The notes under the pieces: generated by a model
The model's database searches: none
What the model was told of the DNA's origin: nothing
Seen by the model: the letters and a program-made list of their open reading frames with translations, nothing else
NCBI RefSeq assembly: GCF_002795845.1
Contig: NZ_CP011797.1
Location: forward strand, 2,131,501 to 2,195,500
Source: Reinekea forsetii
GTDB taxonomy: Bacteria; Pseudomonadota; Gammaproteobacteria; Pseudomonadales; Natronospirillaceae
DNA length: 64,000 bases
Direction of reading: 5' to 3'
Program-made: the position numbers and the translations under genes
In this document: positions 39,788-61,968 of the stretch, piece after piece
Numbering within the stretch: position 1 is the first letter of the stretch
Layout of the letters: each line of letters starts with the position of its first letter

Positions 39788-40747
39788 TTACGCTGCTTGA
39801 TCACTCTCACTCTGTATATCATCTGGATTCAATGTAACACTCCCTACAGGCTCACAATTTCGGATATCGCCCGACCAGCGATACGGCTTGGCTTTTTTCG
39901 CCGCCGTTATGACCTTTTTTCGGTTCAATAATATGCCCCCGTCTTGACCTGCATGACGCTGGGCTGGCGTGACAAAGTTAATCTTGCTGTGCTTATGTTT
40001 CTCGTTATACCAAACCACAAAGTTCTCCACCCAGTCGCGCGCTTCGGTCAACCCGGCAAAGCCAGATGAGGGCCATTCGGGACGGTATTTTAAGGTCCTG
40101 AACAATGCCTCTGAGTAGGGGTTGTCATTGCTCACGCGCGGCCGACTGTAAGACGACAGCACACCCAGTTCTTCCAGCTTGGCTTTCATCGTGAGGGCCT
40201 TCATCGGTGCACCGTTATCCGAGTGCAGCACCAGGGGCTTGTTAAAGCTTTGCTCGCGCAACATGCAGCGCTGGACCAATTCCGCAGCCAGCTCACCACA
40301 CTCTCGATCATGGACTTCATAGCCCACGATCTTGCGACTGTAAATATCTTCAAATAGGTAAAGGTAGTAAAACTGACCCTTTACTCTTGAGGCCAAATAG
40401 GTGATATCCCACGACCAAAGTTGATTGGGCCCTGAGGCCGTATGGCTGGTCGGCTTCCCTGTTTTGGTTGGTGCTTTACTCCGGCCGCGATGATGTAGCT
40501 GATTGTGTGCCTTCAAAATACGGTAGAAACTCGCTTCCGATGCGAGGTAGATACCCTCGTCTAACAGCGTTGGGACCAGCTGTGACGGCGGTAAACTGGC
40601 ATATTGAGGCTCATTACTCACCGCTAAGATCACCTGCGTTTCCTGCTCACTGATTTTATTGGCTGGCACCGGCCGACTGGCCAGTGGCCGCTGGTCCATG
40701 CCAACCAGACCCGCTCGGTACCAACGACGATAGGTCCTGAGGCTCAA
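39788..40747 (-). CDS. IS3-family transposase OrfB (copy 1)
   Basis: 319 residues from the TTG at 40747, but the frame is open upstream to the slippery site at 40879-40885, so the natural product is probably the OrfAB fusion of about 515 residues. An N-terminal helix-turn-helix (ACEEAELSLRTYRRWYRAGL) precedes the rve integrase core with DDE residues: Asp in WSWDITYLAS, Asp in VLHSDNGAPMKALTM and Glu in NPYSEALFRTLKYRPEWP. All look intact. Confidence 0.92.
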   Translation of the reverse strand: MSLRTYRRWYRAGLVGMDQRPLASRPVPANKISEQETQVILAVSNEPQYASLPPSQLVPTLLDEGIYLASEASFYRILKAHNQLHHRGRSKAPTKTGKPTSHTASGPNQLWSWDITYLASRVKGQFYYLYLFEDIYSRKIVGYEVHDRECGELAAELVQRCMLREQSFNKPLVLHSDNGAPMKALTMKAKLEELGVLSSYSRPRVSNDNPYSEALFRTLKYRPEWPSSGFAGLTEARDWVENFVVWYNEKHKHSKINFVTPAQRHAGQDGGILLNRKKVITAAKKAKPYRWSGDIRNCEPVGSVTLNPDDIQSESDQAA

Positions 40748-40839
40748 CTCAGCTTCCTCGCAGGCGCGACTCAGGCGAGCCCCACTGTTCGTGGCCTGGT
40801 GTATTAATGCTACCGTGGCGATGCGCTCGGGCAGTGGCG

Positions 40840-41340
40840 TTAGCTCTCCTCGCCGCCGTCCTCCCAGAGCGCATTGAGCTTTTTTCGTAACACTAACAAA
40901 GCCACCGTTTCGGCCAGCGCCTTTTCCTTGAAGCGAAGATCTTTTTTGAGCAGTTTGATCTCCACCTTGTCCTTCTTGGCTTGGTGTTTGACCGCGCTGC
41001 CTTGGGCTTCACTGGTCTGGAATCCCTGGAGACACTCGCTCTTCCAGCGCTGCACCTGCTCAGGATAGAGGCCTTTTGCACGGCAGTACTGGCCCAGCTC
41101 AGATGCTGACAACGCAGCCGTTTGGATGACCACTGAGAGCTTGGCGTCAGCCGTCCAATCGTCGGCAGATAACGTCTTTCCTGGCACAGGCATTCCTTGT
41201 TGTTTGGCGGTATCGCGCCAATTATAAAGGGTTTTTAACGATATGTGTTCCTGCCGGGCAATCTGGGCCACAGTGACGTTGTGGGGTGGCAACATTTTCT
41301 TCAAGATCGATTCTTTCCGTTCTGCTGAATATCGAGCCAT
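40840..41340 (-). CDS. IS3-family transposase OrfA (copy 1)
   Basis: 166 residues from ATG 41340 (MARYSAERKESILKKM); the frame extends to a TTG at 41397 without support. A helix-turn-helix (VTVAQIARQEHISLKTLYNW) is followed by a second helical DNA-binding segment and a Lys-rich coiled coil (AKKDKVEIKLLKKDLRFKEK). Near the end, the codons CGA AAA AAG form the frameshift site to orfB. Confidence 0.9.
   Translation of the reverse strand: MARYSAERKESILKKMLPPHNVTVAQIARQEHISLKTLYNWRDTAKQQGMPVPGKTLSADDWTADAKLSVVIQTAALSASELGQYCRAKGLYPEQVQRWKSECLQGFQTSEAQGSAVKHQAKKDKVEIKLLKKDLRFKEKALAETVALLVLRKKLNALWEDGGEES
40879..40885 (-). other. Programmed -1 frameshift site of IS copy 1 (A_AAA_AAG)
   Basis: On the minus strand the orfA codons read CGA-AAA-AAG-CTC, giving the classical slippery heptamer A_AAA_AAG in the zero frame. 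A -1 slip continues in the orfB frame without a stop through ELTPLPERIATVA into OrfB. Confidence 0.85.
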
Positions 41341-41452
41341 TCCGTTCTCATTAACCGCCCCCTGATCTGGTTTTAGGTGGAATCTAGAGGGTGACAACTA
41401 TCCTGACACAGGGGGCGGTGTCTTTCAAGGTAGTTGGCACTCTTTTTAGTCA

Positions 41453-42412
41453 TTACGCTGCTTGATCACTCTCGCTCTGTATATCATCTGGATTCAATGT
41501 AACACTCCCTACAGGCTCACAATTTCGGATATCGCCCGACCAGCGATACGGCTTGGCTTTTTTAGCGGCCGTTATGACCTCTTTTCGGTTCAATAATATA
41601 CCCCCGTCTTGACCTGCATGACGCTGGGCTGGCGTGACAAAGTTAATCTTGCTGTGCTTATGTTTCTCGTTATACCACACCACAAAGTTCTCGACCCAAT
41701 CGCGCGCTTCGGTCAACCCGGCAAAGCCAGATGAGGGCCATTCGGGGCGGTATTTTAAGGTCCTGAACAAGGCTTCTGAGTAGGGGTTGTCATTGCTCAC
41801 GCGCGGCCGACTGTAAGACGACAGCACACCCAGTTCTTCCAGCTTGGCTTTCATCGTGAGGGCCTTCATCGGTGCACCGTTATCCGAGTGCAGCACCAGG
41901 GGCTTGTTAAAGCTTTGCTCGCGCAACATGCAGCGCTGGACCAATTCCGCAGCCAGCTCACCACACTCTCGATCATGGACTTCATAGCCCACGATCTTGC
42001 GACTGTAAATATCTTCAAATAGGTAAAGGTAGTAAAACTGACCCTTTACTCTTGAGGCCAAATAGGTGATATCCCAGGACCAAAGTTGATTGGGCCCTGA
42101 GGCCGTATGGCTGGTCGGCTTCCCTGTTTTGGTTGGTGCTTTACTCCGGCCGCGATGATGTAGCTGATTGTGTGCCTTCAAAATACGGTAGAAACTCGCT
42201 TCCGATGCCAGGTAGATACCCTCGTCTAACAGCGTTGGGACCAGCTGTGACGGCGGTAAACTGGCATATTGAGGCTCATTACTCACCGCTAAGATCACCT
42301 GCGTTTCCTGCTCACTGATTTTATTGGCTGGCACCGGCCGACTGGCCAGTGGCCGCTGGTCCATGCCAACCAGACCCGCTCGGTACCAACGACGATAGGT
42401 CCTGAGGCTCAA
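41453..42412 (-). CDS. IS3-family transposase OrfB (copy 2)
   Basis: 319 residues, almost identical to the copy 1 product, with the same intact DDE motifs (WSWDITYLAS, VLHSDNGAPM, NPYSEALFRTLKYR). The one protein difference seen is NRKE where copy 1 has NRKK. Expected to be made as an OrfAB fusion through the heptamer at 42544-42550. Confidence 0.92.
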   Translation of the reverse strand: MSLRTYRRWYRAGLVGMDQRPLASRPVPANKISEQETQVILAVSNEPQYASLPPSQLVPTLLDEGIYLASEASFYRILKAHNQLHHRGRSKAPTKTGKPTSHTASGPNQLWSWDITYLASRVKGQFYYLYLFEDIYSRKIVGYEVHDRECGELAAELVQRCMLREQSFNKPLVLHSDNGAPMKALTMKAKLEELGVLSSYSRPRVSNDNPYSEALFRTLKYRPEWPSSGFAGLTEARDWVENFVVWYNEKHKHSKINFVTPAQRHAGQDGGILLNRKEVITAAKKAKPYRWSGDIRNCEPVGSVTLNPDDIQSESDQAA

Positions 42413-42504
42413 CTCAGCTTCCTCGCAGGCGCGACTCAGGCGAGCCCCACTGTTCGTGGCCTGGTGTATTAATGCTACCGTGGCGATGCGCTCGGGCAGT
42501 GGCG

Positions 42505-43005
42505 TTAGCTCTCCTCGCCGCCGTCCTCCCAGAGCGCATTGAGCTTTTTTCGTAACACTAACAAAGCCACCGTTTCGGCCAGCGCCTTTTCCTTGAAGCG
42601 AAGATCTTTTTTGAGCAGTTTGATCTCCACCTTGTCCTTCTTGGCTTGGTGTTTGACCGCGCTGCCTTGGGCTTCACTGGTCTGGAATCCCTGGAGACAC
42701 TCGCTCTTCCAGCGCTGCACCTGCTCAGGATAGAGGCCTTTTTCACGGCAGTACTGGCCCAGCTCAGATGCTGACAACGCAGCCGTTTGGATGACCACTG
42801 AGAGCTTGGCGTCAGCCGTCCAATCGTCGGCAGATAACTTCTTTCCTGGCACAGGCATTCCTTGTTGTTTGGCGGTATCGCGCCAATTATAAAGGGTTTT
42901 TAACGATATGTGTTCCTGGCGGGCAATCTCGGCCACAGTCATGTTGTTTGGTGGAAACATCTTCTTCAATATCGATTCTTTCCGTTCTGCTGAATAGCGA
43001 GCCAT
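42505..43005 (-). CDS. IS3-family transposase OrfA (copy 2)
   Basis: 166 residues from ATG 43005. Differs from copy 1 at several positions in the helix-turn-helix and beyond (MFPPNNMTVAEIARQE, GKKLS, CREKGL), while the C-terminal half and slippery codons are the same. The two copies have therefore diverged since they shared an ancestor. Confidence 0.9.
   Translation of the reverse strand: MARYSAERKESILKKMFPPNNMTVAEIARQEHISLKTLYNWRDTAKQQGMPVPGKKLSADDWTADAKLSVVIQTAALSASELGQYCREKGLYPEQVQRWKSECLQGFQTSEAQGSAVKHQAKKDKVEIKLLKKDLRFKEKALAETVALLVLRKKLNALWEDGGEES
42544..42550 (-). other. Programmed -1 frameshift site of IS copy 2 (A_AAA_AAG)
   Basis: Identical heptamer and flanks to copy 1, placed at the same position before the orfA stop, so both elements could produce OrfAB. 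Confidence 0.85.
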
Positions 43006-43081
43006 TTTGTTCTCGTTAACCGCCCCCTGATCTGGTTTTAGGTGGAATCTAGAGGGTGACAACTATCCTGACACAGGGGGC

Positions 43082-43355
43082 AAAGGCGATGCTTATACTT
43101 GGTTTTAGCTGTTATGAAATTATTAGCCACACGTTCACGTAACGTGGCTTGTTATCGTTATGACTAAACACATAACAACTCAAACACATCACATAGAAAC
43201 AACACTTAAGAATATGTAAGAAAATAACTATTATCTTACATTTAGACGTAAGTCATTGATGTATGGAAGGTATTTGTAAGACACATTTTGGTTGCTCAAA
43301 ACAAACATCAGAAAATACACTGTATGTACGAAAACATTACATTTAGGTGGTTTAG
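43082..43355. other. AT-rich non-coding DNA upstream of the plus-strand recombinase
   Basis: About 270 bp without a gene, clearly richer in A/T than the surrounding chromosome. It contains an imperfect inverted repeat around AGCCACACGTT and AACGTGGCT (about 43124-43148) and several GTAAG/CTTAC copies (near 43216, 43234, 43248 and 43275), of the kind expected for integrase arm-type binding sites. The 13-bp inverted repeat half at 43248-43260 lies here. Confidence 0.5.
43248..43260 (+). repeat. 13-bp inverted repeat, left half
   Basis: GTAAGTCATTGAT, present in opposite orientation at 45296-45308. The two halves bracket both recombinase genes, about 2.06 kb apart end to end. Confidence 0.75.
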
Positions 43356-43925
43356 ATGGCACAAGCAAAGACACTTAGCAAAGCAGAACTCAAGCAGCTG
43401 TTAGACGTAACAAATTCGTGCAGTCGTTACGCAGAACGTGATGCAACGATGCTGCTGTTTACTCACTTGTGTGGTTTACGCATAGGTGAAGTGGCTGCGC
43501 TGCGTTTTGACGACATACTTGATGCAAACGGCAACGTACGTGACGAAATGACACTTGATGCAGCACGAACAAAGAGCAAGCGAGCACGTAAGATATTTCT
43601 GCCAAAGCAGATGCAGCGTCAACTGATAGAGTACGTTAACAGCTTAAACAAACAACCACTGCACGGTTATTTATTCTCTACACAGAAGCAAGCACACTTT
43701 AGTGCAAATACAGCTACACAGCACTTACAACGCTTGTATTCACGTGCTGGGATTAGTGGTGCTACGTCGCACAGTGGCAGACGCACTTGGCTTACTGCAC
43801 TTAGTCAGAGAGGTGTTAGTGTATTTGTGCTAGCAGAGATGGCTGGACATAGAAGCATACAGACAACTCAGAGATATGTGACAGTAAATGACGAAATGAA
43901 ACGCAACGCAGCAGAATTGATTTAG
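43356..43925 (+). CDS. Tyrosine recombinase (catalytic domain only)
   Basis: 189 residues with AGGTGG just upstream of the ATG. The catalytic residues of the tyrosine recombinase family are visible: Arg in LCGLRIGEVAAL, His-x-x-Arg in TSHSGRRTWLTAL, His in MAGHRSIQTTQRYV and the nucleophile Tyr in the same motif. The N-terminal core-binding domain of full-length integrases is absent or minimal. Base composition is AT-richer than neighbouring chromosomal genes, in keeping with acquisition. Its stop overlaps that of the convergent recombinase by 3-4 bp. Confidence 0.88.
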   Translation: MAQAKTLSKAELKQLLDVTNSCSRYAERDATMLLFTHLCGLRIGEVAALRFDDILDANGNVRDEMTLDAARTKSKRARKIFLPKQMQRQLIEYVNSLNKQPLHGYLFSTQKQAHFSANTATQHLQRLYSRAGISGATSHSGRRTWLTALSQRGVSVFVLAEMAGHRSIQTTQRYVTVNDEMKRNAAELI

Positions 43926-45157
43926 AGAACTTCAATAGTGCCATCGGCATTCCGCTTATAGTCAGCAACAGCGTTGGTTAAACGGATTTCATCATTCAAG
44001 TGATAATACGTCTTTTCAATCTGCGCCACGCTAGTGCCACACATATCTGCTATCTGCCTAAATGTTAAGCCACTCATAATACGCTGCGTAATCATAAAGT
44101 GACGCAAGCTGTATGGTACTAAGTCACGTATTTCTCTGTCTGAAATGTCAGCTAACTCAATCATCTTGTGCCAATGATAAAGCAGTGTACGTTTGCTTAT
44201 TTCACTTTCACCATCCAACGTAAACACAAGTTCATCAGCTCTCTTTGGCTTAGATATTTCGCGTAAGCGTTCGAAGTACTGTCCGTTACGACACAAGAAG
44301 GTACGACTTGTACGTACTTTGCTTGTTTCTGCTCGAACGTGTATGCGTGCTAGCGTTTGTTCACTACCGTTTGCTGAGTGTCGTTCTAGCTGCACATCAC
44401 TCCAACGTAACTGCTTTTGTTCGCCAACACGTAAACCACTATTAGCTGCAACTAGCATATAGTGCTGCACGATTTTTCGCACTCTAAGTTCAGCGTCATC
44501 TAGCTTGTTGTGTTTGGCACAGTAGGTACGCATTGCACGATAGAGTGTTTCGTATTCATCGTTAGTTAACGTTGCTCTGCGTATCGCTTCATTACCTTTG
44601 TCTAAGCGTGGTAATTTCTTAAACTCAAAGCTGTCAATGTGAGTCTCGCCGTTCTTATTCAGCCACTTCATCAATGCATTTATAGTGCTTTGTTCGTTTT
44701 GAACTGTGACTTGTTTGACTTTGGTGTTGGTGGTTTTGTGGCGATGGTAGAAGTAGTTTTCGCAGTCAGTGCGTTCGAGTTCTTTGAGCTTAGTGTCTTT
44801 GCCAATGAAGCTAAGGAAGTGCTGTAGATGTGTTGCGATAGTTGCTAAGCGTCCACTCACAATGTGTCCAAGCTCAACGTCACGCTTACGAAAGCTCAAG
44901 TACTTCTCAACACCTTCTTTGGTGGTAATTGAAAAGTAACTCTTGCCTTGTTGCAAGTTACCGTAAATCTCTAAGTAAGCAGCCTTGCCACGCTCTACAG
45001 CAGTGCTCTCGCTGCGTGTGCGTAGGCTTTTACGTGCGTACTTATTCTCTTTAGGCAACCACAAGCGAAACTGCCAATACTCGCCTCGCTTGTACACACA
45101 AGCTTCATCAAATATTGTTATTTCACCTTCAGCAAAGTTTTGTTTTTTAAGTGCCAA
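43922..45157 (-). CDS. Site-specific tyrosine recombinase / integrase, 411 aa
   Basis: 411 residues from TTG 45157; no ATG occurs in frame between the upstream stop and this codon. The N-terminal arm-binding-like segment (FDEACVYKRGEYWQFRLWL) and SAM-like core-binding domain (about 75-175) precede the catalytic domain. Catalytic Arg is in NSGLRVGEQKQLRW, the second Arg in PYSLRHFMIT, and the nucleophile Tyr in EKTYYHL. The usual first His is Tyr (PYSLR) and the second is Thr (CGTSV), a variant I associate with some integrase subfamilies. Composition is AT-rich. It lies 161 bp from the guaA stop, pointing away from it. Confidence 0.88.
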   Translation of the reverse strand: MALKKQNFAEGEITIFDEACVYKRGEYWQFRLWLPKENKYARKSLRTRSESTAVERGKAAYLEIYGNLQQGKSYFSITTKEGVEKYLSFRKRDVELGHIVSGRLATIATHLQHFLSFIGKDTKLKELERTDCENYFYHRHKTTNTKVKQVTVQNEQSTINALMKWLNKNGETHIDSFEFKKLPRLDKGNEAIRRATLTNDEYETLYRAMRTYCAKHNKLDDAELRVRKIVQHYMLVAANSGLRVGEQKQLRWSDVQLERHSANGSEQTLARIHVRAETSKVRTSRTFLCRNGQYFERLREISKPKRADELVFTLDGESEISKRTLLYHWHKMIELADISDREIRDLVPYSLRHFMITQRIMSGLTFRQIADMCGTSVAQIEKTYYHLNDEIRLTNAVADYKRNADGTIEVL

Positions 45158-50174: not shown

Positions 50175-51440
50175 TCAGCCTAATAGAGCCTGACCCTGGA
50201 TCTCAACCACTCGTTGTCGCAGGCGCTGATAGTCGCCGCTTCCCTGATCGTGTTCGGCACACACCCCGAGTAGATCCTCGATAAAATGCGCCAGCGCGCG
50301 GCGTTCAATGCGCTTGACCTGCCCCTGCTGCGCTGGGGTCAACATCTGATACAGGCTCGCGGCACCGAAGTCACCGAAGATAATATTGGCCTGCGCATCA
50401 AACAGGGTGTTGTGGGCATAGAGGTCGCCGTGGCAGACCTGGTTGGCATGTAGGTGATCGAACACCGCATCCATCTGAGCAATCATCTTATCGATCTGCA
50501 CGATGGAGAGGCTGAAACCTAGGCTAAAGGTATCGCGCGTGCAGCTGTCGAGGCTGGGCGGCAAGCCCAGATTAGTGAAGTGCGCGGGGATCAAATTCAT
50601 GATCAGCGCGAGATGGCCCGGCTCATTGACTTGCGCCAAGGACCGCACCAAATTGGGATGATTACCCACTTTTAAACAGGCCTGCAATTCATCATCGGGG
50701 TAACCATCGCTGGTAACCTCGCCTTTAAAGACCTTCACCGCTATCGCCTCGGGAAACTCGCTTTGCGGGCTGTTCCAGAGCGCTTGTGAAATTACCCCGG
50801 ACGCGCCCTGACCCAGCACCTGAGCAAGGCTATAGCGGCTGGAGGCGATCATGGGCACCTGATTGACCCGGTCATCGGATCGACTAAAGGGATTGCCGGC
50901 AAAGGCAAACCAGGCCAGCTTGGGCAAACTCAAGAGTTGCTCTGGGCAATGGCTTAATTGGTTGGCTGAGATGCGCACCAACTCCAGGTTAACCGATTGG
51001 GCCAGGGTCTGCGGTAAATGGGTTAAGCGATTGCCCGCCAAGGCCAGCTTCTGCAGCCGGGGTCGCTGGCCGAGCGAATCGGGCAAGGTCACGATCTGGT
51101 TATCCGTTAGGATCAACCAACGCAGTTGCGCCGGCAAGGCATGCTCGGCAACCTGCCGGATCCGATTCGACTTAAAGCCAACCATTTCCAAGTTGACGCA
51201 CAGGCCGAGCACTTCCGGCAGTGCTTCGAACAGATTATTGGACGCGAAAATTATTTTCAGCTGGGTCAATTGCGCCAGCTCGGCCGGCAGCGTGGTGAGC
51301 CGATTATTGGACAGGTCCAAAACCTCTAAGCTACTTGCTAGAGTGAGTATTTCCACGGGAAAGGCGGTGAGATTTTCGGACAGCGTCAGCCGCTTAATGC
51401 CGGCGAGTTCGCCTGACTTCAGTTGTGCTAGGGTTTGCAA
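50175..51440 (-). CDS. Leucine-rich-repeat protein with C-terminal Ser/Thr kinase domain
   Basis: 421 residues from TTG 51440, which has AGGA 9 nt upstream and gives the family-like start QTLAQLKSGELAGIKRLTLS; the frame extends to 51491. About seven LRR units (consensus LxxLxLxxNxLxxLPxxL) fill residues 10-195. A kinase domain follows: Gly-rich loop QVLGQGASGVISQAL, Lys in IAVKVFKG, catalytic loop VCHGDLYAHNTLFD and DFGAASLYQ, so it looks active though short. Such eukaryote-like LRR kinases occur in several gammaproteobacteria; the target is unknown. It starts 88 bp after the ABC permease gene on the same strand and may be cotranscribed with it. Confidence 0.85.
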   Translation of the reverse strand: MQTLAQLKSGELAGIKRLTLSENLTAFPVEILTLASSLEVLDLSNNRLTTLPAELAQLTQLKIIFASNNLFEALPEVLGLCVNLEMVGFKSNRIRQVAEHALPAQLRWLILTDNQIVTLPDSLGQRPRLQKLALAGNRLTHLPQTLAQSVNLELVRISANQLSHCPEQLLSLPKLAWFAFAGNPFSRSDDRVNQVPMIASSRYSLAQVLGQGASGVISQALWNSPQSEFPEAIAVKVFKGEVTSDGYPDDELQACLKVGNHPNLVRSLAQVNEPGHLALIMNLIPAHFTNLGLPPSLDSCTRDTFSLGFSLSIVQIDKMIAQMDAVFDHLHANQVCHGDLYAHNTLFDAQANIIFGDFGAASLYQMLTPAQQGQVKRIERRALAHFIEDLLGVCAEHDQGSGDYQRLRQRVVEIQGQALLG

Positions 51441-51528
51441 AATATGACGTCCTGGAGGATAGCGGCAAGTGCCGGGCAGTGTACGCAACACGGGACTGGA
51501 ATTACAGCCCCGCGCCCTGCCCTAAGCC

Positions 51529-52854
51529 TTATGAGGCGGCGCGCAAGGCATCACCCGGTGCCATATTGGCCGCTTTCCGGGCGGGGAAGTAGACCGCACC
51601 GGCGGCAACTAGTGCGGTCACGACGAGCGGCACCAGTACAGCCAGCCACGACAGTGGGAACTGCAACTGACCGGTCACGGCAAACATTGCCAAGGGCCCA
51701 CCGCCTGGCAGTGTCAGGGTGCCCAGGACGGCGGCTAAGATAAATGCACAGACGATCCCGACGCTGGCGCCCATCAGTGCCGTTAGCACCGATTCGGCGA
51801 TAAAGAGGCGAAAAATCCAACTGCGTTGCGCGCCCATGGCACGCAGGGTACCGATTTCCTGAACCCGTTCCAGTATCACCATGCGATATGCGTTGGTGAT
51901 GCCGACCATAATAATCAGCAACATCACCACAAAGACGGCCAGCGAAATGGCCTCCAGGGCGCCGATTAAAGACAGTACATCGGACATGGCATCGTTGAGA
52001 TTGGTCACGGTAAAGCGTGTGCCCTGCCACGGCTCGTCTATGTGTTCGATCAGATTGCCCGACATGCCCATCATTCGGCGTTTCATTGGATTCTCTTCGT
52101 CGGCCGGCTGCACGCTAGCCTGTTCACCAAAGTAGGCCAGGAGCCGGTCACGTATGGCATCCATATCGCTAATTTGCGCGAGTACTAGATTCAGTTGCTG
52201 ATAGGCCTCAGGCGGCAAACCGATCAGTCCGTTGACGTCGCTCAAATTAGCGTAATTGGTGACCTCGTTAAGGCCCTCCGGATCGGCAATCACCGCGGCA
52301 ATGGTCCACTCCACTAAGTTCTGCTGGCCGGTCACGGTACTGGCGCGAATCAGAATCGACTCACCTGCGGTAACCCCCAGTTCATTGGCCACCTTTTCTG
52401 GCACGATCAGCATTTTCGCCTGGGACATCAGACTGACGTCACCGGCGATACGCGCCATATTGTCGAAGACATTGGTCTCGACGCTAAAGTCGACACCGGC
52501 CACGGTGCCCTGCACCGCTTGGCCGCCAAAGGATAGGGTCGCCGCGCTGGACGAGCGTTTATTCTGCTGCACGATGCGATCGGCCAAGGGCGCCAGGGCT
52601 CGACTTACTAAGGCGCGATCTTCGATCACGGCCAGATTGCGGTTGGAGGCGGTAACGATTTCGCCACTGATGTAGACGTGGCCGCCCAGCGCCTTGGAGA
52701 AATTGCTTTCAACACTATTGGCCATGCCCACGGTGAGACTGTTGACCAGGGTGATAATCATCACGCCAAACGCCATCGACAAGGCCAACATCAGACTGCG
52801 TTTGCCTTGGCGAGCAACATTACGGTATGCCATGTTAATCATATTAAGTTTCAT
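51529..52854 (-). CDS. FtsX/MacB-type ABC transporter permease (second)
   Basis: 441 residues. An N-terminal helix (about 20-42) opens a large periplasmic MacB-PCD-like domain (about 45-290), and three C-terminal helices of the FtsX fold follow (about 305-330, 355-385, 400-425). Also present is the cytoplasmic motif ERVQEIGTLRAMGAQRSWIF typical of this class. In this superfamily the permeases drive periplasmic substrates by mechanotransmission (MacB) or extract lipoproteins (LolCE). Follows the first permease after 17 bp; the two likely form a heterodimer with the ATPase at 54375-55142. Confidence 0.9.
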   Translation of the reverse strand: MKLNMINMAYRNVARQGKRSLMLALSMAFGVMIITLVNSLTVGMANSVESNFSKALGGHVYISGEIVTASNRNLAVIEDRALVSRALAPLADRIVQQNKRSSSAATLSFGGQAVQGTVAGVDFSVETNVFDNMARIAGDVSLMSQAKMLIVPEKVANELGVTAGESILIRASTVTGQQNLVEWTIAAVIADPEGLNEVTNYANLSDVNGLIGLPPEAYQQLNLVLAQISDMDAIRDRLLAYFGEQASVQPADEENPMKRRMMGMSGNLIEHIDEPWQGTRFTVTNLNDAMSDVLSLIGALEAISLAVFVVMLLIIMVGITNAYRMVILERVQEIGTLRAMGAQRSWIFRLFIAESVLTALMGASVGIVCAFILAAVLGTLTLPGGGPLAMFAVTGQLQFPLSWLAVLVPLVVTALVAAGAVYFPARKAANMAPGDALRAAS

Positions 52855-52871
52855 CTACTGTGCTCCGGGCC

Positions 52872-54371
52872 TTAGCCTTGCATCGCTTTTAATGGGCTCA
52901 CTTTAAGGGCAATACCCAATGGGTACAGACAGGCCAATACGGCCCCGAGCGTCATCATCGATACCGCCTGCAGCACTGCGCTGACCGACACCGATGGATA
53001 GAGCGCATCACCTCCGAATAAAATTTTGATAATATCGTTTGCCGCCGGCAAACCATTAATGCTGATCAGCCACAGTGCCACCGTCCCCACTAGCACCCCG
53101 ACCAGAGCCGAGGCCAGCGCGAGGATCAGAGTTTCGGTCAGAATCATTTTGCGGACAAAGGCTTTTTGAGCCCCGATAGCGCGCATCGTGCCAATTTCCT
53201 GCAACCGTTCGGTGACCGAGATGACTAGAGTATTCATGATAATAAGGGTGGCGACGAAGGCGACCAGTACCACCAAACCATTGAGGATCAGCTTGATACC
53301 GCCGACCAAATTGCCGATAAAACCGGCGGCCTGGGTCCAATCGCCGACCCGCCAATTCAGATCGTTGGCGTCCACCCAAGCCTGCAAGCGCTCTTGGGTG
53401 ACCGCCACATCGGCCGGATTGTCCAACAACAGCACCGCGAACTGAGCCTGCACCGGGAGCGTAACGTGCGCCGCGACACCGGGACTGGAATGAGCGGCAA
53501 GCGCTATCGGCTCAGCCACGACCGACTCATTGCTCAGCTCGGGGGTGATCAGGCTAGAGCCGTTACCAAATAGGTCAGGCGCCGCCGTGCCCATCAGCGT
53601 GGCCTCGCCAAACAGACTGTCCTCAGTGACCTGGCCTAAAATCTCGCTTTCCGCTGCGGACAGCTGCACCTCTATGACTTGCTGGTGGTTTAACGACAGC
53701 AGCGCTTGTGAGGTTTTCAGGTCTACCAGGCTCATCAGCTCCAACTGCGGCGCGGCGATGGTTTTAAAGGCAAACAGGCCGCTGATCGTGACTTCACGAA
53801 TCTTGATGCCATTGTCACCCATCACGGTGATCAATAGCGTTTCGCCCACCTTGATAGGACTGCCCTGAGCCTCCGCGAGCGCATCGGCCACGCCAATACT
53901 AAGCGCAATCGACGGCGCGTCACCAGACCAGAGCCCGCCCTCAAGCCAGGTCAATGGCTGTGCGAAACTGTGCTGCCAAACGGTTGGGTCGATACCCCAG
54001 AACAGCGAACCACCCTGCTCGCCCTGGTTAGTCTCCAATATACCGCGACCGACCGTAGTCGGTGAGACCGACTGGACATTGGCTTGCGCCGCCAATTGGC
54101 CAGCAAATTCGTCGAACCGCTCCAGTGCCTGGACCCCGTCCGTGCCGAATGACCCAAAGATACTCAGGTCGCCTTCATCCTCGACCGGCGCATAGATAAA
54201 GATGTCACCGCTGTATTGTTCGGTAAAGCTGTGGCGCAAGCCGACCGAAATGGAATCCATAATCGAATTACCCATCACCAACAGGGTCACGCCCAGCGCG
54301 ATCAGGCCCCCTACGATCAGGGTTTTGCTGCGATGTTCGGTGAGATTGCGCAGTGCGATTTTGGTAATCAT
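52872..54371 (-). CDS. FtsX/MacB-type ABC transporter permease (first)
   Basis: 499 residues with the same plan as its partner: N-terminal helix (about 17-38), a larger periplasmic domain (about 40-345) and three C-terminal FtsX helices, with ERLQEIGTMRAIGAQKAFVR as coupling motif. The periplasmic domain is about 60 residues longer than in the second permease. Starts 3 bp after the ATPase stop. LolC/LolE-like or MacB-like transport are both possible; nothing here fixes the substrate. Confidence 0.9.
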   Translation of the reverse strand: MITKIALRNLTEHRSKTLIVGGLIALGVTLLVMGNSIMDSISVGLRHSFTEQYSGDIFIYAPVEDEGDLSIFGSFGTDGVQALERFDEFAGQLAAQANVQSVSPTTVGRGILETNQGEQGGSLFWGIDPTVWQHSFAQPLTWLEGGLWSGDAPSIALSIGVADALAEAQGSPIKVGETLLITVMGDNGIKIREVTISGLFAFKTIAAPQLELMSLVDLKTSQALLSLNHQQVIEVQLSAAESEILGQVTEDSLFGEATLMGTAAPDLFGNGSSLITPELSNESVVAEPIALAAHSSPGVAAHVTLPVQAQFAVLLLDNPADVAVTQERLQAWVDANDLNWRVGDWTQAAGFIGNLVGGIKLILNGLVVLVAFVATLIIMNTLVISVTERLQEIGTMRAIGAQKAFVRKMILTETLILALASALVGVLVGTVALWLISINGLPAANDIIKILFGGDALYPSVSVSAVLQAVSMMTLGAVLACLYPLGIALKVSPLKAMQG

Positions 54372-54374
54372 GGG

Positions 54375-55142
54375 CTACTCCGCCTGTGCCATCGGTTCGG
54401 CTGCAGGGGCGTGATCACCGGTTGCGCTTTTACCGTTCTGAAAATATTCATCGATGATGGTGCCGTCCTGCAGTTTCACCACATGATCGGCGATTTCAAC
54501 GACGCGCGGATCGTGCGTCGAAAAGACAAAGGTGGTACCCAACTCCTGATTCATTTGATGCATCAGCGCAATGATCTGCGCCCCGGTTTTAGAATCCAGG
54601 TTGGCAGTCGGTTCGTCGGCCAGCACAATGCTCGGTTTGGTCACCAACGCTCGGGCGATGGCCACCCGCTGACGTTGACCGCCAGACAGTTCGTTCGGGC
54701 GATTGATGCGCCGATCGGCCAGACCAACCTGTTCAATCAAATGATTAATCCAGTCCTGTTGTTCGGCGGGCGCCCAATTGGCATAGGGATTGTGCTTACT
54801 GCTGTCGAGCAAGAGTGGGAATTCAATATTTTCACGCACATTGAGCACCGGAATCAAGTTAAAGGACTGAAAGATAAAGCCCAGCTTTTGATGGCGTAAA
54901 CGGGTTATCTCGACTTCGCTCATGCTGCCGGTAATGATGCCGTTTATCTCCACCTGGCCCGACGTCGGTGCGTCGATGCAACCAATCAAATTCAGAGCGG
55001 TCGATTTACCGGATCCAGACGGACCGCTTAGGGCAATGAAATCGCCAGCATGGGCCGCAAAACTGACGTCATTCAAGGCCTTCACCAGGGTGTTACCCAA
55101 TGCGTACTGTTTGGTCACGCTATCTAACTTAATTACTGCCAT
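54375..55142 (-). CDS. ABC transporter ATP-binding protein (LolD/MacB class)
   Basis: 255 residues. Walker A GPSGSGKSTALNLIG (about 40-54), Q-loop FIFQSFNLIPVLNV, signature ELSGGQRQRVAIARAL, Walker B IVLADEPTANLD and switch His in FSTHDPR. The C-terminal 25 residues (GKSATGDHAPAAEPMAQAE) extend past the usual end. First gene of a minus-strand operon with two FtsX-type permeases, divergent from a LolA/RseB-like gene. Confidence 0.93.
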   Translation of the reverse strand: MAVIKLDSVTKQYALGNTLVKALNDVSFAAHAGDFIALSGPSGSGKSTALNLIGCIDAPTSGQVEINGIITGSMSEVEITRLRHQKLGFIFQSFNLIPVLNVRENIEFPLLLDSSKHNPYANWAPAEQQDWINHLIEQVGLADRRINRPNELSGGQRQRVAIARALVTKPSIVLADEPTANLDSKTGAQIIALMHQMNQELGTTFVFSTHDPRVVEIADHVVKLQDGTIIDEYFQNGKSATGDHAPAAEPMAQAE

Positions 55143-55224
55143 CGTTCGTCTCCGTTACCTTTTGTGAATAACGCTATTAAAACCGTATCTGGGAGGCATC
55201 GACATTGATGAAAAAAAACGCGCC

Positions 55225-55250
55225 ATAACAATTTGTTATAATCTGTTATC
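55225..55250. promoter_or_regulatory. Candidate operator and -10 box in the divergent ABC / LolA-like promoter
   Basis: ATAACA-ATT-TGTTAT (55225-55239) is a perfect palindrome, and a third half-site TGTTAT follows at 55244, exactly 10 bp after the second. A perfect TATAAT at 55237-55242 lies within it, with no good -35, suggesting activator-dependent transcription of the plus-strand operon. Half-sites spaced by one helical turn suit an OmpR-type regulator such as the one encoded at 57439. Confidence 0.5.
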
Positions 55251-55323
55251 GGATAGCAATGGGCTCAGCGCGGGCGCTTTTCTACACTGAGCCACATCAA
55301 AACAGCCCAAACGAGCCGAACCT

Positions 55324-56091
55324 ATGAAACTATTGACGAACTCCCGCAGCCTGCTCACGACAGCCTTGACCAGCAGCCTACTTTTAGCTGGCGTATGGGC
55401 CGCTGCCGAGAGCGGCAGCGACACCCTGGCAGCAATCGACCGCAACACCAATTTGCTCGACAACGATGTCTCGATGGTGGCGACGATGATCACCGAGAGC
55501 ACGGCCGATGGAGTGGACAAAAATGTTGTTCGGATGTTTCGCCGGGATCGTGATGATACCTTTTTAATTCTGTTTCAAGAGCCGGAAAATATTCGCGGCC
55601 AAGGCTATCTGCAGATCGATGAAACCCTGTGGTTTTACGACCCGGAGAGTCGAAAATTTACCCATACTTCGATTAAAGATAGTTTTAAGGACTCCGACGC
55701 CAATAATTCGGATTTCGGCTCATCAGCCTGGGCCATCGATTACCGCGTCACCGGTTCCGTGGCGGCCAAACTGGGCTCCTTTTCGACCCATCTGCTAACC
55801 CTGGCCGCAACCAGTGATGAGGTGACCTACCCGAGCATGAAAATTTGGGTCAATGACAGTCCCCTGCTGGTACTCAAAGCTGAAGCCTATAGCTTAAGCG
55901 GCCGCCTGATGCGCACCTCCTACTTCCCGTCCTATACCCAGGCCGGTGACGCCTATATGGCAACGAAAATGATTTTTGTCGACGAAATCGTCAGCGGCGA
56001 TAAGACCACCCTAACCTTCGATCAGGTCAGCACCATCGATTTGGACGATTCCGTCTTTACCAAAGCCTATGTTGAACGCGTCAACAAATAA
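55324..56091 (+). CDS. Periplasmic outer-membrane lipoprotein-sorting-type protein (LolA/RseB fold)
   Basis: 255 residues. A signal peptide (about 1-27, cleavage after VWAAA) is followed by a single domain matching the COG2834-type family: FLILFQEPENIRGQGYLQID, ETLWFYDPESRKFTHTS and DVEVLTYPSM-like residues in TSDEVTYPSMKIWV. The fold forms an open beta-half-barrel that holds lipid chains in LolA and RseB. Divergent from the ABC genes and 11 bp before the beta-barrel gene, so it probably ferries a hydrophobic cargo between them. Confidence 0.85.
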   Translation: MKLLTNSRSLLTTALTSSLLLAGVWAAAESGSDTLAAIDRNTNLLDNDVSMVATMITESTADGVDKNVVRMFRRDRDDTFLILFQEPENIRGQGYLQIDETLWFYDPESRKFTHTSIKDSFKDSDANNSDFGSSAWAIDYRVTGSVAAKLGSFSTHLLTLAATSDEVTYPSMKIWVNDSPLLVLKAEAYSLSGRLMRTSYFPSYTQAGDAYMATKMIFVDEIVSGDKTTLTFDQVSTIDLDDSVFTKAYVERVNK

Positions 56092-56102
56092 GGAGTTTAT
56101 CG

Positions 56103-57380
56103 ATGCAGCCATTCACAACCTACTCCAGCCGCACTGGTCTGGCCCTTACGATGGTGCTTGCCGTCGGCCAGGTGAACGCCGGCGACGATGTCTTTGGCAC
56201 GCCAGCCGAACCCGGTGACGACCTGTTTGGCGGTGCGTCATTGGTGACTGACGTCATTGCCAACGAGGTGAATTTGGCCGAAGACATGCTCACTGGGGAT
56301 GAGGTACTCAACTGGTCCGGGTCGTTCGCCTGGCAAAGCGCTGGGATTTTGATCGACCAGCCGACGGTTGAACATGACCCCCAGGTGCAGTCCGAATTGT
56401 CGGGCAATCTGAAACTCGATGCCCGGCCCAATGTCGACTATCGTGTTTTGCTCAACTTAGATTACAGCGCGACGGCCGATGGCAGCAGCAGTTTGTTGCG
56501 CGAAGCCTTTGCCGATTTCGACCTCGACAACCAACTCTTTATTCGTGCCGGGCAACAAACCCTGCAGTGGGGCGTGGGCTACTTTTACAGCCCAGCCGAC
56601 ACCCTGAGTCAGGACTCGATCGACGCCAATGACCCCGATCAGGATCGGATCGGCACCATGGCGGCTAAAATCCATAAGCCCAAGGGTACCGCCAACTACT
56701 ATGCCTATCTGATTCCCGACGATACCGCCAACAGTTACAGTATCGCCGTTAAGGGTGAATGGTTATTGGGCAGTCAGGAATGGGGCCTAGGTGTTGTTAG
56801 GCAGGCCAATAACGAACTCAACCTAGTGGTCACCGGTTCGGTTCCGACCGACCTGGGCGATCTGTTCACCGAATATAATCTCAGCTTGGGCGAAACCAGC
56901 CTGGGTTTAAGCGCTGCTGGCTCGCTGTATGACCGCAGCGATGAGCTGTTGCAGCAATTTACCGTGGGCATGCGTGCCAGCCAGGATATTGGGCCGGACA
57001 GTTCACTGAGCCTGAGTGGGCAGTACTATTACAATGGACTCGGTTATACTGAGCCGACTTGGTCCACTGCAGCCAACGATTGGCAGAGCCTGACCTTAGG
57101 CCGCGAGGTCGCGGAACAGCTCAGCCAACAACTGGCCGCCCTGATGATTCAGCTAGCGGATCCCTACGGTCTGCCCCTAAGCGCCTCGATGCTAGCTTTA
57201 AGCAGCCTAACCGATGGTTCAGCGATGCTCAAAAGTACCGTCACGCTGAGCCCGAATGACTTTGTTAGCACGGCTCTGAGTGTCACCACTCTGATGGGCG
57301 ATCCGGGCGGCGAATATGCCCCCATGGGCGACCTGAGTCGTTACGAGTTGACCCTGACGCTGGGCAGCCAGAGCTTTTAA
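56103..57380 (+). CDS. Outer-membrane beta-barrel protein, function unknown
   Basis: 425 residues, preceded by AAGGAG. A signal peptide ends at VGQVNA (about residue 24). The mature protein has alternating amphipathic strands and ends with aromatic Phe (GSQSF), as outer-membrane barrels do. REAFADFDLDNQLFIRAGQQ followed by TLQWGVGYFYSPAD resembles the strand-turn motif of DUF1302 and related porin-like families. Cotranscribed with the LolA/RseB-like gene and followed after 58 bp by the two-component genes. Confidence 0.75.
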   Translation: MQPFTTYSSRTGLALTMVLAVGQVNAGDDVFGTPAEPGDDLFGGASLVTDVIANEVNLAEDMLTGDEVLNWSGSFAWQSAGILIDQPTVEHDPQVQSELSGNLKLDARPNVDYRVLLNLDYSATADGSSSLLREAFADFDLDNQLFIRAGQQTLQWGVGYFYSPADTLSQDSIDANDPDQDRIGTMAAKIHKPKGTANYYAYLIPDDTANSYSIAVKGEWLLGSQEWGLGVVRQANNELNLVVTGSVPTDLGDLFTEYNLSLGETSLGLSAAGSLYDRSDELLQQFTVGMRASQDIGPDSSLSLSGQYYYNGLGYTEPTWSTAANDWQSLTLGREVAEQLSQQLAALMIQLADPYGLPLSASMLALSSLTDGSAMLKSTVTLSPNDFVSTALSVTTLMGDPGGEYAPMGDLSRYELTLTLGSQSF

Positions 57381-57438
57381 TGGCTCCGGATGAAATGTAT
57401 AGACCCTAATGCACCTAGGCTACAACAGAGACCCACTG

Positions 57439-58140
57439 ATGAGTGTACGGATCCTAATAGTCGAAGATGAACCCGAGCTGGCCGAATTGATCGCGCTCTA
57501 TTGCGAACACGCGGGCTGGCAAAGCATTGTCTGCGGCAGTGCCGAAGAAGCCTTGGGCGCGCTCAAGGTCGCCAGCTTTGCCTTAATCACCCTGGACATC
57601 AATTTACCCGGTATCGACGGTTTTGAATTTCTAGCCAAGATTAGGCTGCAAACGCAGGCGCCGGTGGTGATCGTCAGTGCGCGTGAGTCCGATGGCGAGA
57701 TCATCAACGGTCTGGAGTTGGGTGCCGACGAATACGTCACCAAACCCTTTGCCCCCAAGGTATTGATTGCCCGCATGTCGGCCCTACTGCGTCGCCAGGA
57801 AAGCCGGGTGCCGAATAAAGAACAGTTCAACTTCGGCACCCTGGTATTGGAACCCGATGCCTTTGCGGTTAAGAACGGCGCTGAGCGAATCAATTTATCG
57901 ACCCGGGAGTTTGATATTCTCTTGGCCTTGGTGCAAGCCAATGGTACACCGGTCAATACCTATGAGCTGCTGGAAAAGGTTTGGGGTTCTCAAACCACCG
58001 AAACCTCCGCGGTTGGCGTCTATATCCAACGCTTGCGTAAAAAACTCGAATCGATACCGGGCAACCAGGGGCTGATAGAAACCGTCCATGGTCGCGGCTA
58101 TTGCATCAACAGCCAGCGACACGGAGGCGAACCGGAGTGA
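57439..58140 (+). CDS. OmpR-family response regulator
   Basis: 233 residues from ATG 57439; the in-frame ATG at 57409 would add ten residues lacking family support. Receiver domain with VEDEPELAEL, phosphoacceptor Asp near 54 in LITLDINLPGIDG and Lys in YVTKPFAPKVL. The winged-helix output domain is intact (INLSTREFDILLALVQANGT to VHGRGYCIN). The stop overlaps the kinase start (GTGA), so the pair is coupled. Confidence 0.95.
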   Translation: MSVRILIVEDEPELAELIALYCEHAGWQSIVCGSAEEALGALKVASFALITLDINLPGIDGFEFLAKIRLQTQAPVVIVSARESDGEIINGLELGADEYVTKPFAPKVLIARMSALLRRQESRVPNKEQFNFGTLVLEPDAFAVKNGAERINLSTREFDILLALVQANGTPVNTYELLEKVWGSQTTETSAVGVYIQRLRKKLESIPGNQGLIETVHGRGYCINSQRHGGEPE

Positions 58141-59456
58141 ACCTAAAACGGCAAATAATTCTGCTGATCGCCGGCATTCTGATTATTCCGCTGGTCAGCA
58201 TCGGCATCGTGTTCACCATTCTTATGTCGAATGAAACCGCCGAGGGCTTGGCCTTCGAATACCGCCATGATAGCCATCTTATCCAAGGCTGGCTGGATGG
58301 CGAGCGGGGCGCAGACTTTCCGACCATCAAGACCGATCAAGATATTTTTATCGAACTGGACGGACGCCTGGTGTTCAGCAGTATCGAAGGTCTAGAACCG
58401 GCGCAAATGGCCCAGATCCTGGCCGATCATGACGTCCTGTCGAGCTTGTATCGGGTAGCGAACGGCGAGTACCGCATCTATCATCTCTATCCCGCACAGA
58501 GCTGGCAAATCGCAACCAACAACAGCAAGTTTGCCTTGCTGGTTCCGACCACCCTTATTCTATTTATCGCCAGCATGGCGGGCTGGATTTTACGCAGCAT
58601 GCACCTGAAGGTGCGCCAGCTAGTGACCACCACGCAAACTATCGCGCGCGGCGATCTCAGCCAGAATCCAACGTTCGAGGGCAAGGATGAATTTTTTCTG
58701 CTCGGCGAAAGTTTGGAGTCCATGCGCCAGCAGCTTAAGAATGATCAAGACAATCGAACGCGCCTGCTGATGGGTATTTCGCACGATCTAAAGACCCCCC
58801 TGGCGAGCATCATCGGCTATGTTCAGGCCATCCAGGATGGCCTCGCCAAGACCGATGCAACCCGCGCCAAATACATCGATATTATCGCCGTTAAATCGGA
58901 ACTATTGGACAGCCGCATCCGCGCCTTGATTGAGTTTGTAAAGCTGGAAACGAGCCAGTGGCAGGTCAATAAAAAAAACCAGGACCTCAATGCCTATATC
59001 GAGACCTGGTTTGCCGAGTTGAGTAATGATATTGAGGTCAGTGGCCGTTTTAGCGCGCTGAGCAATGGTTTGCCAAGCAACCTAGCGCTGAATTTTGACA
59101 GTGAATTGTTGCGTCGTGGCTTAGACAACCTGGTGTCCAATGCCATCAAATACAGCCCCCTTGAAAGCACCGTATACCTGGCCATCCACCTGGTTAGTCA
59201 CAACGGCGACCCGGAGGTCAAGCTGCAGGTTAAAAATACTGGCATGCCCTATTCCACTGGCCAGCAAAAAAGCCTCTTCCAAGCCTTCTATCGCGCCGAT
59301 AACGGCCGCAATAAGGACGGCATGGGGCTAGGCCTGACCGTGGTCGAAAAGGTGGCCCAGCTGCATGGCGGCCGGGCCCATTATCAGTATCTAGACGAGC
59401 AGCATGTTTTTAGTCTAACGCTGGCCTGCTTAACGCCGCCCGCTACTATTTTTTAG
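58137..59456 (+). CDS. Sensor histidine kinase
   Basis: 439 residues from GTG 58137, overlapping the response-regulator stop. Two transmembrane helices (about 6-28 and 135-155) bracket a roughly 105-residue periplasmic sensor domain. HAMP follows (about 158-208), then the H-box GISHDLKTPLASIIGY with the phosphorylated His near 217, N-box LDNLVSNAIKYSP and G-box KDGMGLGLTVVEKV. The periplasmic domain has no recognised ligand motif. It probably senses an envelope state connected with the neighbouring transport genes. Confidence 0.94.
   Translation: MNLKRQIILLIAGILIIPLVSIGIVFTILMSNETAEGLAFEYRHDSHLIQGWLDGERGADFPTIKTDQDIFIELDGRLVFSSIEGLEPAQMAQILADHDVLSSLYRVANGEYRIYHLYPAQSWQIATNNSKFALLVPTTLILFIASMAGWILRSMHLKVRQLVTTTQTIARGDLSQNPTFEGKDEFFLLGESLESMRQQLKNDQDNRTRLLMGISHDLKTPLASIIGYVQAIQDGLAKTDATRAKYIDIIAVKSELLDSRIRALIEFVKLETSQWQVNKKNQDLNAYIETWFAELSNDIEVSGRFSALSNGLPSNLALNFDSELLRRGLDNLVSNAIKYSPLESTVYLAIHLVSHNGDPEVKLQVKNTGMPYSTGQQKSLFQAFYRADNGRNKDGMGLGLTVVEKVAQLHGGRAHYQYLDEQHVFSLTLACLTPPATIF

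Positions 59457-59547: not shown

Positions 59548-59550
<3 letters not shown>
59467..59550 (-). repeat. Four imperfect tandem repeats of about 21 bp at the end of the protease gene
   Basis: Units of roughly 21-22 bp start near 59467, 59488, 59510 and 59530; each carries CTCTTT or TGTTTA followed by an AAACCCGCTA-like end. The last unit includes the protease stop codon (59548-59550). Read on the minus strand, several units contain TAG or TAA, so they provide stops just beyond the natural one. Confidence 0.6.

Positions 59551-61968
<2,418 letters not shown>

Follow-up and report, generated by a model that had tools for sequence, protein, structure and literature searches.

A LolB-free gene cassette in Reinekea forsetii with relatives in spirochaetes, probably a dedicated export route across the cell envelope

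In the gammaproteobacterium Reinekea forsetii, a compact set of envelope genes lies in a stretch of 64,000 nucleotides (contig NZ_CP011797.1, positions 2,131,501 to 2,195,500 of the forward strand), the whole of which is called the window here. Between xseA, which ends at 50148, and the gene of a thermolysin-type M4 protease (59548-61707) there are eight genes, seven of which form the system described here. They span window positions 51529-59456 and form two divergent units with 181 bp between them, as had been proposed in a preliminary description of this DNA, which saw two divergent operons around one shared region and listed an ATP-binding cassette (ABC) pair, a carrier, a barrel and a two-component system, all of which are confirmed at the locus. 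The leftward unit has the order ATPase, permease A, permease B, followed by the gene of a leucine-rich repeat (LRR) protein kinase, and the rightward unit has the order carrier, barrel, response regulator, histidine kinase. The features are as follows:

50175-51491, minus strand: LRR-protein kinase with HGD and DFG motifs
51529..52854, minus strand: FtsX/MacB-type permease B, 441 amino acids (aa); hydrophobic segment 20-38, region of ~260 aa, C-terminal segments
52872..54371, minus strand: FtsX/MacB-type permease A, 499 aa; hydrophobic segment 19-37, region of ~330 aa, three C-terminal segments
54375..55142, minus strand: ABC ATPase of the LolD/MacB/FtsE class (ABC_tran, 116.9 bits)
55143..55323, no strand: divergent intergenic region of 181 bp between the ATPase and carrier genes
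55324..56091, plus strand: LolA-like periplasmic carrier (PF17131; 135.7 bits, gathering cut-off 30)
56103..57380, plus strand: outer-membrane barrel, porin/AlgE-like, with 18 predicted strands and a C-terminal F
57439..58140, plus strand: OmpR/PhoB-type response regulator (profile match)
58137..59456, plus strand: sensor histidine kinase with a GTG start and a GTGA overlap with the regulator gene

The ATPase has a Walker A motif (GPSGSGKS), a signature motif (LSGGQ) and an H-loop, and the predicted segment layout of both permeases, which carry MacB_PCD and FtsX domains, is that of the FtsX/MacB plan. When nine proteins of the window were scanned against profiles, the ATPase stayed below the LolD cut-off (TIGR02211, 217.1 bits vs 307.75), and the permeases stayed far under that of LolC/E (TIGR02212, 57.3 and 60.9 bits vs 362.45) and gave 20.5 and 31.5 bits with the MacB profile, the cut-off of which is 966; the permeases are thus not clear orthologues of a characterised exporter. 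The carrier begins with a hydrophobic, signal-like N-terminus without a lipobox cysteine, its sole Pfam match at E<=0.01 is PF17131 and not PF03548, and its structural likeness to the DUF1329 structure 4z48 reaches a Z of 25.6. Of the LolA/RseB fold proposed for it earlier, the LolA part stands, whereas an identity as RseB-like stress sensor was rejected, the fold match being far weaker than that to LolA-like proteins. The barrel had been recognised correctly; a DUF1302-like motif was ascribed to it, but it stays below the gathering score of the DUF1302 profile PF06980 (17.5 bits vs 23.2), which matches at E<=0.001 in 5 of 52 aligned barrels. The fold of the barrel model is near AlgE and Wzi; Omp85 folds are absent among the matches listed for it, which excludes nothing. 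Barrels of the distant cassettes L062, L065 and L069 do pass the PF06980 score, and in L062 (5551-7434) and L069 (9743-11563) a peptidoglycan-binding SPOR domain stands N-terminal to the DUF1302 barrel. The histidine kinase consists of a hydrophobic segment, a sensor region of ~100 aa, a second hydrophobic segment, HAMP, HisKA and HATPase. As described before, the parts are thus predicted in the inner membrane, the periplasm and the outer membrane.

No LolB, no adaptor (MacA) or TolC family and no RND (resistance-nodulation-division) match was found among the nine scanned window proteins. The earlier remark that there is no LolB-like gene is therefore right for the cassette but wrong for the cell, as the genome encodes elsewhere a LolB, a LolC/E-type permease (463 bits) and a PF03548 LolA. 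These separate Lol genes, together with the profile cut-offs, rule out an ordinary Lol operon, and since the host Lol genes lie elsewhere, the cassette would be a route parallel to the normal Lol pathway.

Carriers of this type were found in 9/145 genomes of the order (its own included), in 29/369 genomes of the class, and in the spirochaete phylum in 47/149 genomes at E<=1e-25 and 146/392 at E<=1e-40; the search profile A1 was built from two spirochaete and six gammaproteobacterial carriers, and its scores therefore favour kin of these members. Besides the window, 132 loci were examined that had been gathered via carrier hits (profile or sequence): the order contributed 10 (nine places and L025, a second, distant cassette of the own genome), the class 32, and a first draw from the spirochaetes 50 (48 places, L014 and L015), while a further 40 spirochaete loci served as hold-out. 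The loci are interrelated; a genome may contribute more than one (in the hold-out, G889 and G870 have three each), and there are nearly identical rows. Neighbours were counted within 7 kb of the carrier with profiles derived from early loci, so that the first sets contain profile members. A permease is found beside the carrier in 126 loci (10/10 order, 30/32 class, 48/50 first-draw, 38/40 hold-out), a barrel in 115 (9/10, 22/32, 45/50 and 39/40, respectively), and an ATPase in 108 (10/10, 29/32, 40/50 and 29/40), and all four components are present in 92/132 loci, with loci cut by contig ends scored as misses. The ATPase, two permeases, the carrier and the barrel are thus a recurrent five-gene cassette. 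A co-occurrence search as suggested in the preliminary description therefore shows that homologues of the carrier, barrel and ABC genes are linked elsewhere, and this recurrence supports its view of the ABC pair, carrier, barrel and two-component system as one linked unit.

Spirochaete cassettes mostly run ATPase, permease A, permease B, carrier, barrel, all in a single direction. The closest relative of the window cassette is L016, with a carrier 55% and an ATPase 62% identical; permease A is 42% identical to that of L016 and 33-35% to those of five spirochaete loci, and permease B shares 37-40% with L016 and the same number of spirochaete loci. L016 also has the divergent arrangement of the window, without the LRR kinase and the two-component system. 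In eight spirochaete loci with long flanks (L109, L115, L205, L208, L216, L217, L234 and L242), permeases, carrier and barrel are present with no adjacent ATPase, which may be encoded elsewhere or shared; the counts of missing ATPases include these eight as well as contigs that end. L075 and L088 have a carrier and a barrel without an FtsX or ABC profile match within 7 kb, and these pairs are perhaps served by another pump type. Eleven plasmid records match, all with <60% identity. The second cassette of R. forsetii itself (G000:C1:1509992-1515165; L025 9793-14966) has the order LolA-like protein, permease, permease, ATPase, barrel, and by eye its barrel has no tail motif of the kind described below.

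Most barrels of the two-permease type have, right after the signal peptide, an acidic stretch with D-x-L-F-like motifs, and in the window barrel this N-terminal tail, which is of low confidence in the model, holds DDVF and DDLF (with F42). In the alignment of the 52 barrels, which were picked by profile score, three columns are invariant, and F42 is among them. A loose and a strict pattern for the motif were written after the first set and fixed before the result of the hold-out, the genomes of which are from the same phylum. The loose pattern is found in 49/73 barrels of the first set vs 17.2 expected from the same segments shuffled, and in 41/47 vs 11.8 expected if only the closer barrels are considered. 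The hold-out comprised 40 new places from the top of the spirochaete list at E<=1e-40 (G851 and G839, near contig ends, were omitted), and 37/40 loci had a barrel open reading frame (ORF) of >250 aa <=3 kb from the carrier; in L209 and L210 the barrel is further upstream, in L231 none was seen, and the L228 ORF, which is among the 37, is mis-started. Here the loose pattern occurs in 33/37 barrels vs 11.1 expected and the strict one in 28/37 vs 4.4 expected. Elsewhere in the hold-out barrels, the loose form is found in 73/219 segments and the strict form in 25/219, and 3/40 hold-out carrier N-tails have the strict form. The strict motif is present in 61/85 loci with two permeases vs 3/15 with one, uncorrected for kinship. 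In the distant cassettes L062 and L069, the SPOR domain mentioned above precedes the barrel instead. The conservation of so short a motif in a periplasmic tail points to docking, with the carrier as the obvious presumed partner and a permease domain or the barrel lumen as alternatives. The D-x-L-F-like barrel tail is new; in the open-access literature, no paper was found on the porin-type cassette and how widely it occurs, on the clade with the sensor pair or on the tail motif.

In six spirochaete loci (L110, L203, L206, L215, L222 and L223), the barrel gene is succeeded by those of a regulator and a kinase, arranged as in the window. The regulators are 44-48% identical to that of the window and the kinases 27-36% over aligned parts, and the alignment of the L203 kinase runs from residue 1 through the sensor region; L238, whose regulator (8e-45) and kinase (8e-34) are less close relatives encoded on the opposite strand, was excluded from the count. 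A first tree of 95 carriers (IQ-TREE) groups the window, L016, L203, L206, L215, L222 and L223 at 100/95, with the window and L016 joining L203 and L206 at 99/84, and L110 joining at 80/87. On this tree, the two-component label needs two changes, and 0/500 shuffles need as few. As this tree omitted most gammaproteobacterial carriers, a second one was made from 42 gammaproteobacterial and 32 chosen spirochaete rows; it has the same seven-row set at 99/91, nested in 28 rows (26 spirochaete and 2 gammaproteobacterial) at 99/93. In both trees the window and L016 fall among spirochaete rows, apart from the other gammaproteobacterial carriers, and the simplest reading is therefore a cross-phylum transfer in which the seven-gene unit would have been acquired from a spirochaete-type donor. 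For single branches the reverse direction is possible, and several of the spirochaete genomes are draft contigs, single ones of which may be contaminated. L017-L020 form a second gammaproteobacterial group, with carriers beside the spirochaete L112 in the second tree, perhaps due to a second transfer.

The cassette is accessory in its family. At E<=1e-10, R. forsetii alone among the six own-family genomes of the order search encodes the carrier, and in 12/12 family genomes examined (20 others found) the surroundings of xseA do not contain the cassette; in L264, from the genus of R. forsetii, the gene of an M4 protease that shares 64% identity with the one in the window lies near xseA without the cassette. 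The LRR kinase had been regarded as a possible part of the ABC operon, and this had to be given up: its homologues (E<=1e-40) are found in 9/145 genomes of the order, as is the carrier, with the own genome as the only overlap, and its profile labelled no ORF in the 132 cassette loci. It was thus rejected as a cassette member and is, judged by distribution, unrelated to the cassette.

The divergent intergenic region contains a tandem repeat (AATTTGTTAT/AATCTGTTAT) at 55230-55249, the spacing of which is typical of OmpR-family sites, and which is a candidate site for the regulator. A 9-of-10 repeat at 10/11-bp spacing arises in 15/2000 shuffles of the region, and this one has no second copy in the window. 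A promoter scan reported no match in 55143..55323, and the intergenic stretch of L016 yielded no direct repeat. At some distance, in window 39788-45157, there are, according to the translations, two transposase-like genes (319 aa each, differing in one residue, with 1.7 kb between them) and an integrase-like gene that ends beside the 3' end of guaA, and an integrated element at guaA is possible.

Taken together, we consider it probable, albeit with some reserve, that the system serves as a dedicated route by which an amphiphilic molecule, probably one with an acyl anchor, is exported across the envelope alongside the Lol pathway of the cell itself. Judged by its family, the ATPase would power the two-permease FtsX-type transporter, which would lift the substrate off the outer leaflet of the inner membrane in a MacB/LolCDE-like mechanotransmission. 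The fold of the LolA-like carrier suggests that it takes the substrate over the periplasm inside its hydrophobic half-barrel, and it would then dock on the flexible acidic D-x-L-F tail, which is conserved, of the porin-like barrel, which would receive the cargo instead of a LolB. The two-component system, which recurs, may sense the substrate or the state of the envelope and presumably controls the shared promoter region. Several points weigh against such an export route. There is no substrate gene fixed beside the cassette: when 1260 ORFs, taken from the window and 93 other loci, were clustered, only cassette families reached >5 loci, so that a conserved cargo gene was rejected, and no shared cargo gene was seen by eye in the flanks of L203, L206, L215, L222 and L223. 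Uptake channels have porin folds too, and the outward direction is deduced from the ABC type alone. The strict motif is absent in 39/109 barrels, including 12/15 of one-permease loci and those of L203, L222 and L223, with a few mis-started ORFs, and the Borrelia barrel BBJ25 shows no D-x-L-F tail. The position of L110 is unsure, because the second tree puts it outside the window's set. Finally, L016 has no two-component system, and its genome G131 gives no kinase match at E<=1e-20, so that a mere displacement of the pair is ruled out; most simply, G131 would have lost it.

Among the alternatives, an inducible detoxification or resistance module is possible but on the unlikely side. The sensor pair would in this case detect a membrane-active amphiphile, such as an antimicrobial lipopeptide, a detergent or a terpene, which the ABC transporter, carrier and barrel would extrude. 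Such a role has been put forward for AmeABCD (monoterpenes) and for Bce modules (peptide antibiotics). The co-inheritance of a sensor pair with an FtsX-type ABC transporter and the accessory presence (carrier in 1/6 family genomes, absence beside xseA in 12/12) fit this, as does the trypsin/PDZ (HtrA-type) protease that adjoins L203, but the cassette has no adaptor or TolC-type gene, and 88/94 other tree loci have no counted sensor pair, some being cut by contig ends. Also the ~100-aa periplasmic region of the window sensor is unlike Bce-type sensors, which are not known to have a large periplasmic domain. The analogy to RND-DUF1329-DUF1302 systems, as far as the part of PMC6394551 considered here describes them, speaks for detoxification as well. 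A chance neighbourhood of unrelated envelope genes would accord with the unrelated look of the adjoining LRR kinase, but its probability is practically negligible, and for the seven genes it is refuted by the recurrence in other loci and the co-inheritance on the tree.

Within the export reading, two kinds of substrate can be considered more specifically. One or a few dedicated lipoproteins could be brought to the surface by a private Lol system with barrel-assisted exposure, which we regard as unlikely; it would follow the LolCDE/LolA logic, and lipobox-like ORFs are more frequent adjacent to the cassettes (13/158, e.g. in L204 and L229) than further out (19/518), but the Fisher p of 0.03 is weak, uncorrected and based on a home-made pattern, inspection by eye makes several of the 13 doubtful, and next to the window cassette no such gene was noticed. 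Clearly doubtful is a lipid-linked glycan or a glycolipid as the molecule brought to the surface, a reading with which the likeness of the barrel to AlgE and Wzi is consistent. Five cassettes (L207, L218, L224, L233 and L236) are embedded in spirochaete polysaccharide or O-antigen-type clusters, the best example being L207, which lies between glycosyltransferase and dTDP-sugar genes; the other four share an ABC-2 permease of one cluster. A Pfam scan of 124/137 flanking ORFs (13 spurious or second-sensor ones were dropped by eye) gave 6 Glycos_transf_1, 3 Glycos_transf_2, 3 Glycos_transf_4 and 2 Bac_transf matches, and 3 each of NTP_transferase, Epimerase, RmlD_sub_bind and UDPG_MGDP_dh, with multiple matches per protein possible, but these counts have no background rate, and by eye there are no glycan genes in the flanks of L203, L206, L215, L222, L223 or the window cassette.

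By our comparison, the closest published logic is that of Borrelia BBJ23-29, next to which come the RND-DUF1329-DUF1302 system AmeABCD and LolCDE-LolA-LolB. In Borrelia, where no LolB homologue has been identified according to the part of PMC13078400 considered, a MacB-type ABC transporter, a LolA-like carrier and an outer-membrane barrel are clustered as well. The window ATPase is 33% identical to BBJ26 (1.9e-44), and the permeases are weakly similar to BBJ27 (2.4e-7 and 1.3e-5). However, as described in the same part, the seven Borrelia genes include one homodimeric permease, an Omp85-type barrel and two tetratricopeptide repeat (TPR) proteins but no sensor pair, and the cassette carrier and barrel profiles give no match to BBJ28 or BBJ25 at E<=1, which rules out identity of the two systems on these two components. 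With LolCDE-LolA-LolB, the unit shares an ATPase, two FtsX-type permeases and a LolA-fold carrier, but it differs in the PF17131 carrier, the barrel in place of LolB, the accessory status and the sub-cut-off ATPase and permeases. AmeABCD likewise combines a LolA-superfamily periplasmic protein, an outer-membrane barrel (DUF1302) and an inner-membrane pump, which is an RND (HAE3) protein there and a split FtsX-type ABC transporter here; it has an additional periplasmic AmeC, and no sensor pair is seen in the portion of PMC6394551 used. The flexirubin locus of F. johnsoniae offers a LolA-like paralogue, LolA2, proposed for one special cargo, but it is paired with a LolB paralogue (LolB2), and the main text of PMC11885536 does not mention FtsX. 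MacAB-TolC, in which ATPase and permease are fused, has the MacB_PCD and FtsX domains and a related ATPase, whereas the window unit has a separate ATPase gene and two different permeases and encodes neither MacA nor TolC.

By what path lipids, glycolipids and lipoproteins of the cell surface get to the outer membrane where LolB is lacking, spirochaetes being one example, is an open question, and this compact recurrent gene set offers parts for every station of a LolB-free route. More speculatively, and with only a limited chance of being right, these cassettes may form a cross-phylum class of LolB-free exporters in which the porin itself is the acceptor: its D-x-L-F tail would capture the carrier and the cargo would go into or through the barrel, with a sensor of its own in one clade, which would give spirochaetes and some gammaproteobacteria a private surface route for lipids, glycolipids or lipoproteins. 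The phenylalanine of the D-x-L-F motif offers a specific, testable contact, and one clade brings its own sensor. As R. forsetii has a single-contig genome with an ordinary Lol pathway, the dedicated route, if dispensable, could be deleted there without losing lipoprotein sorting.

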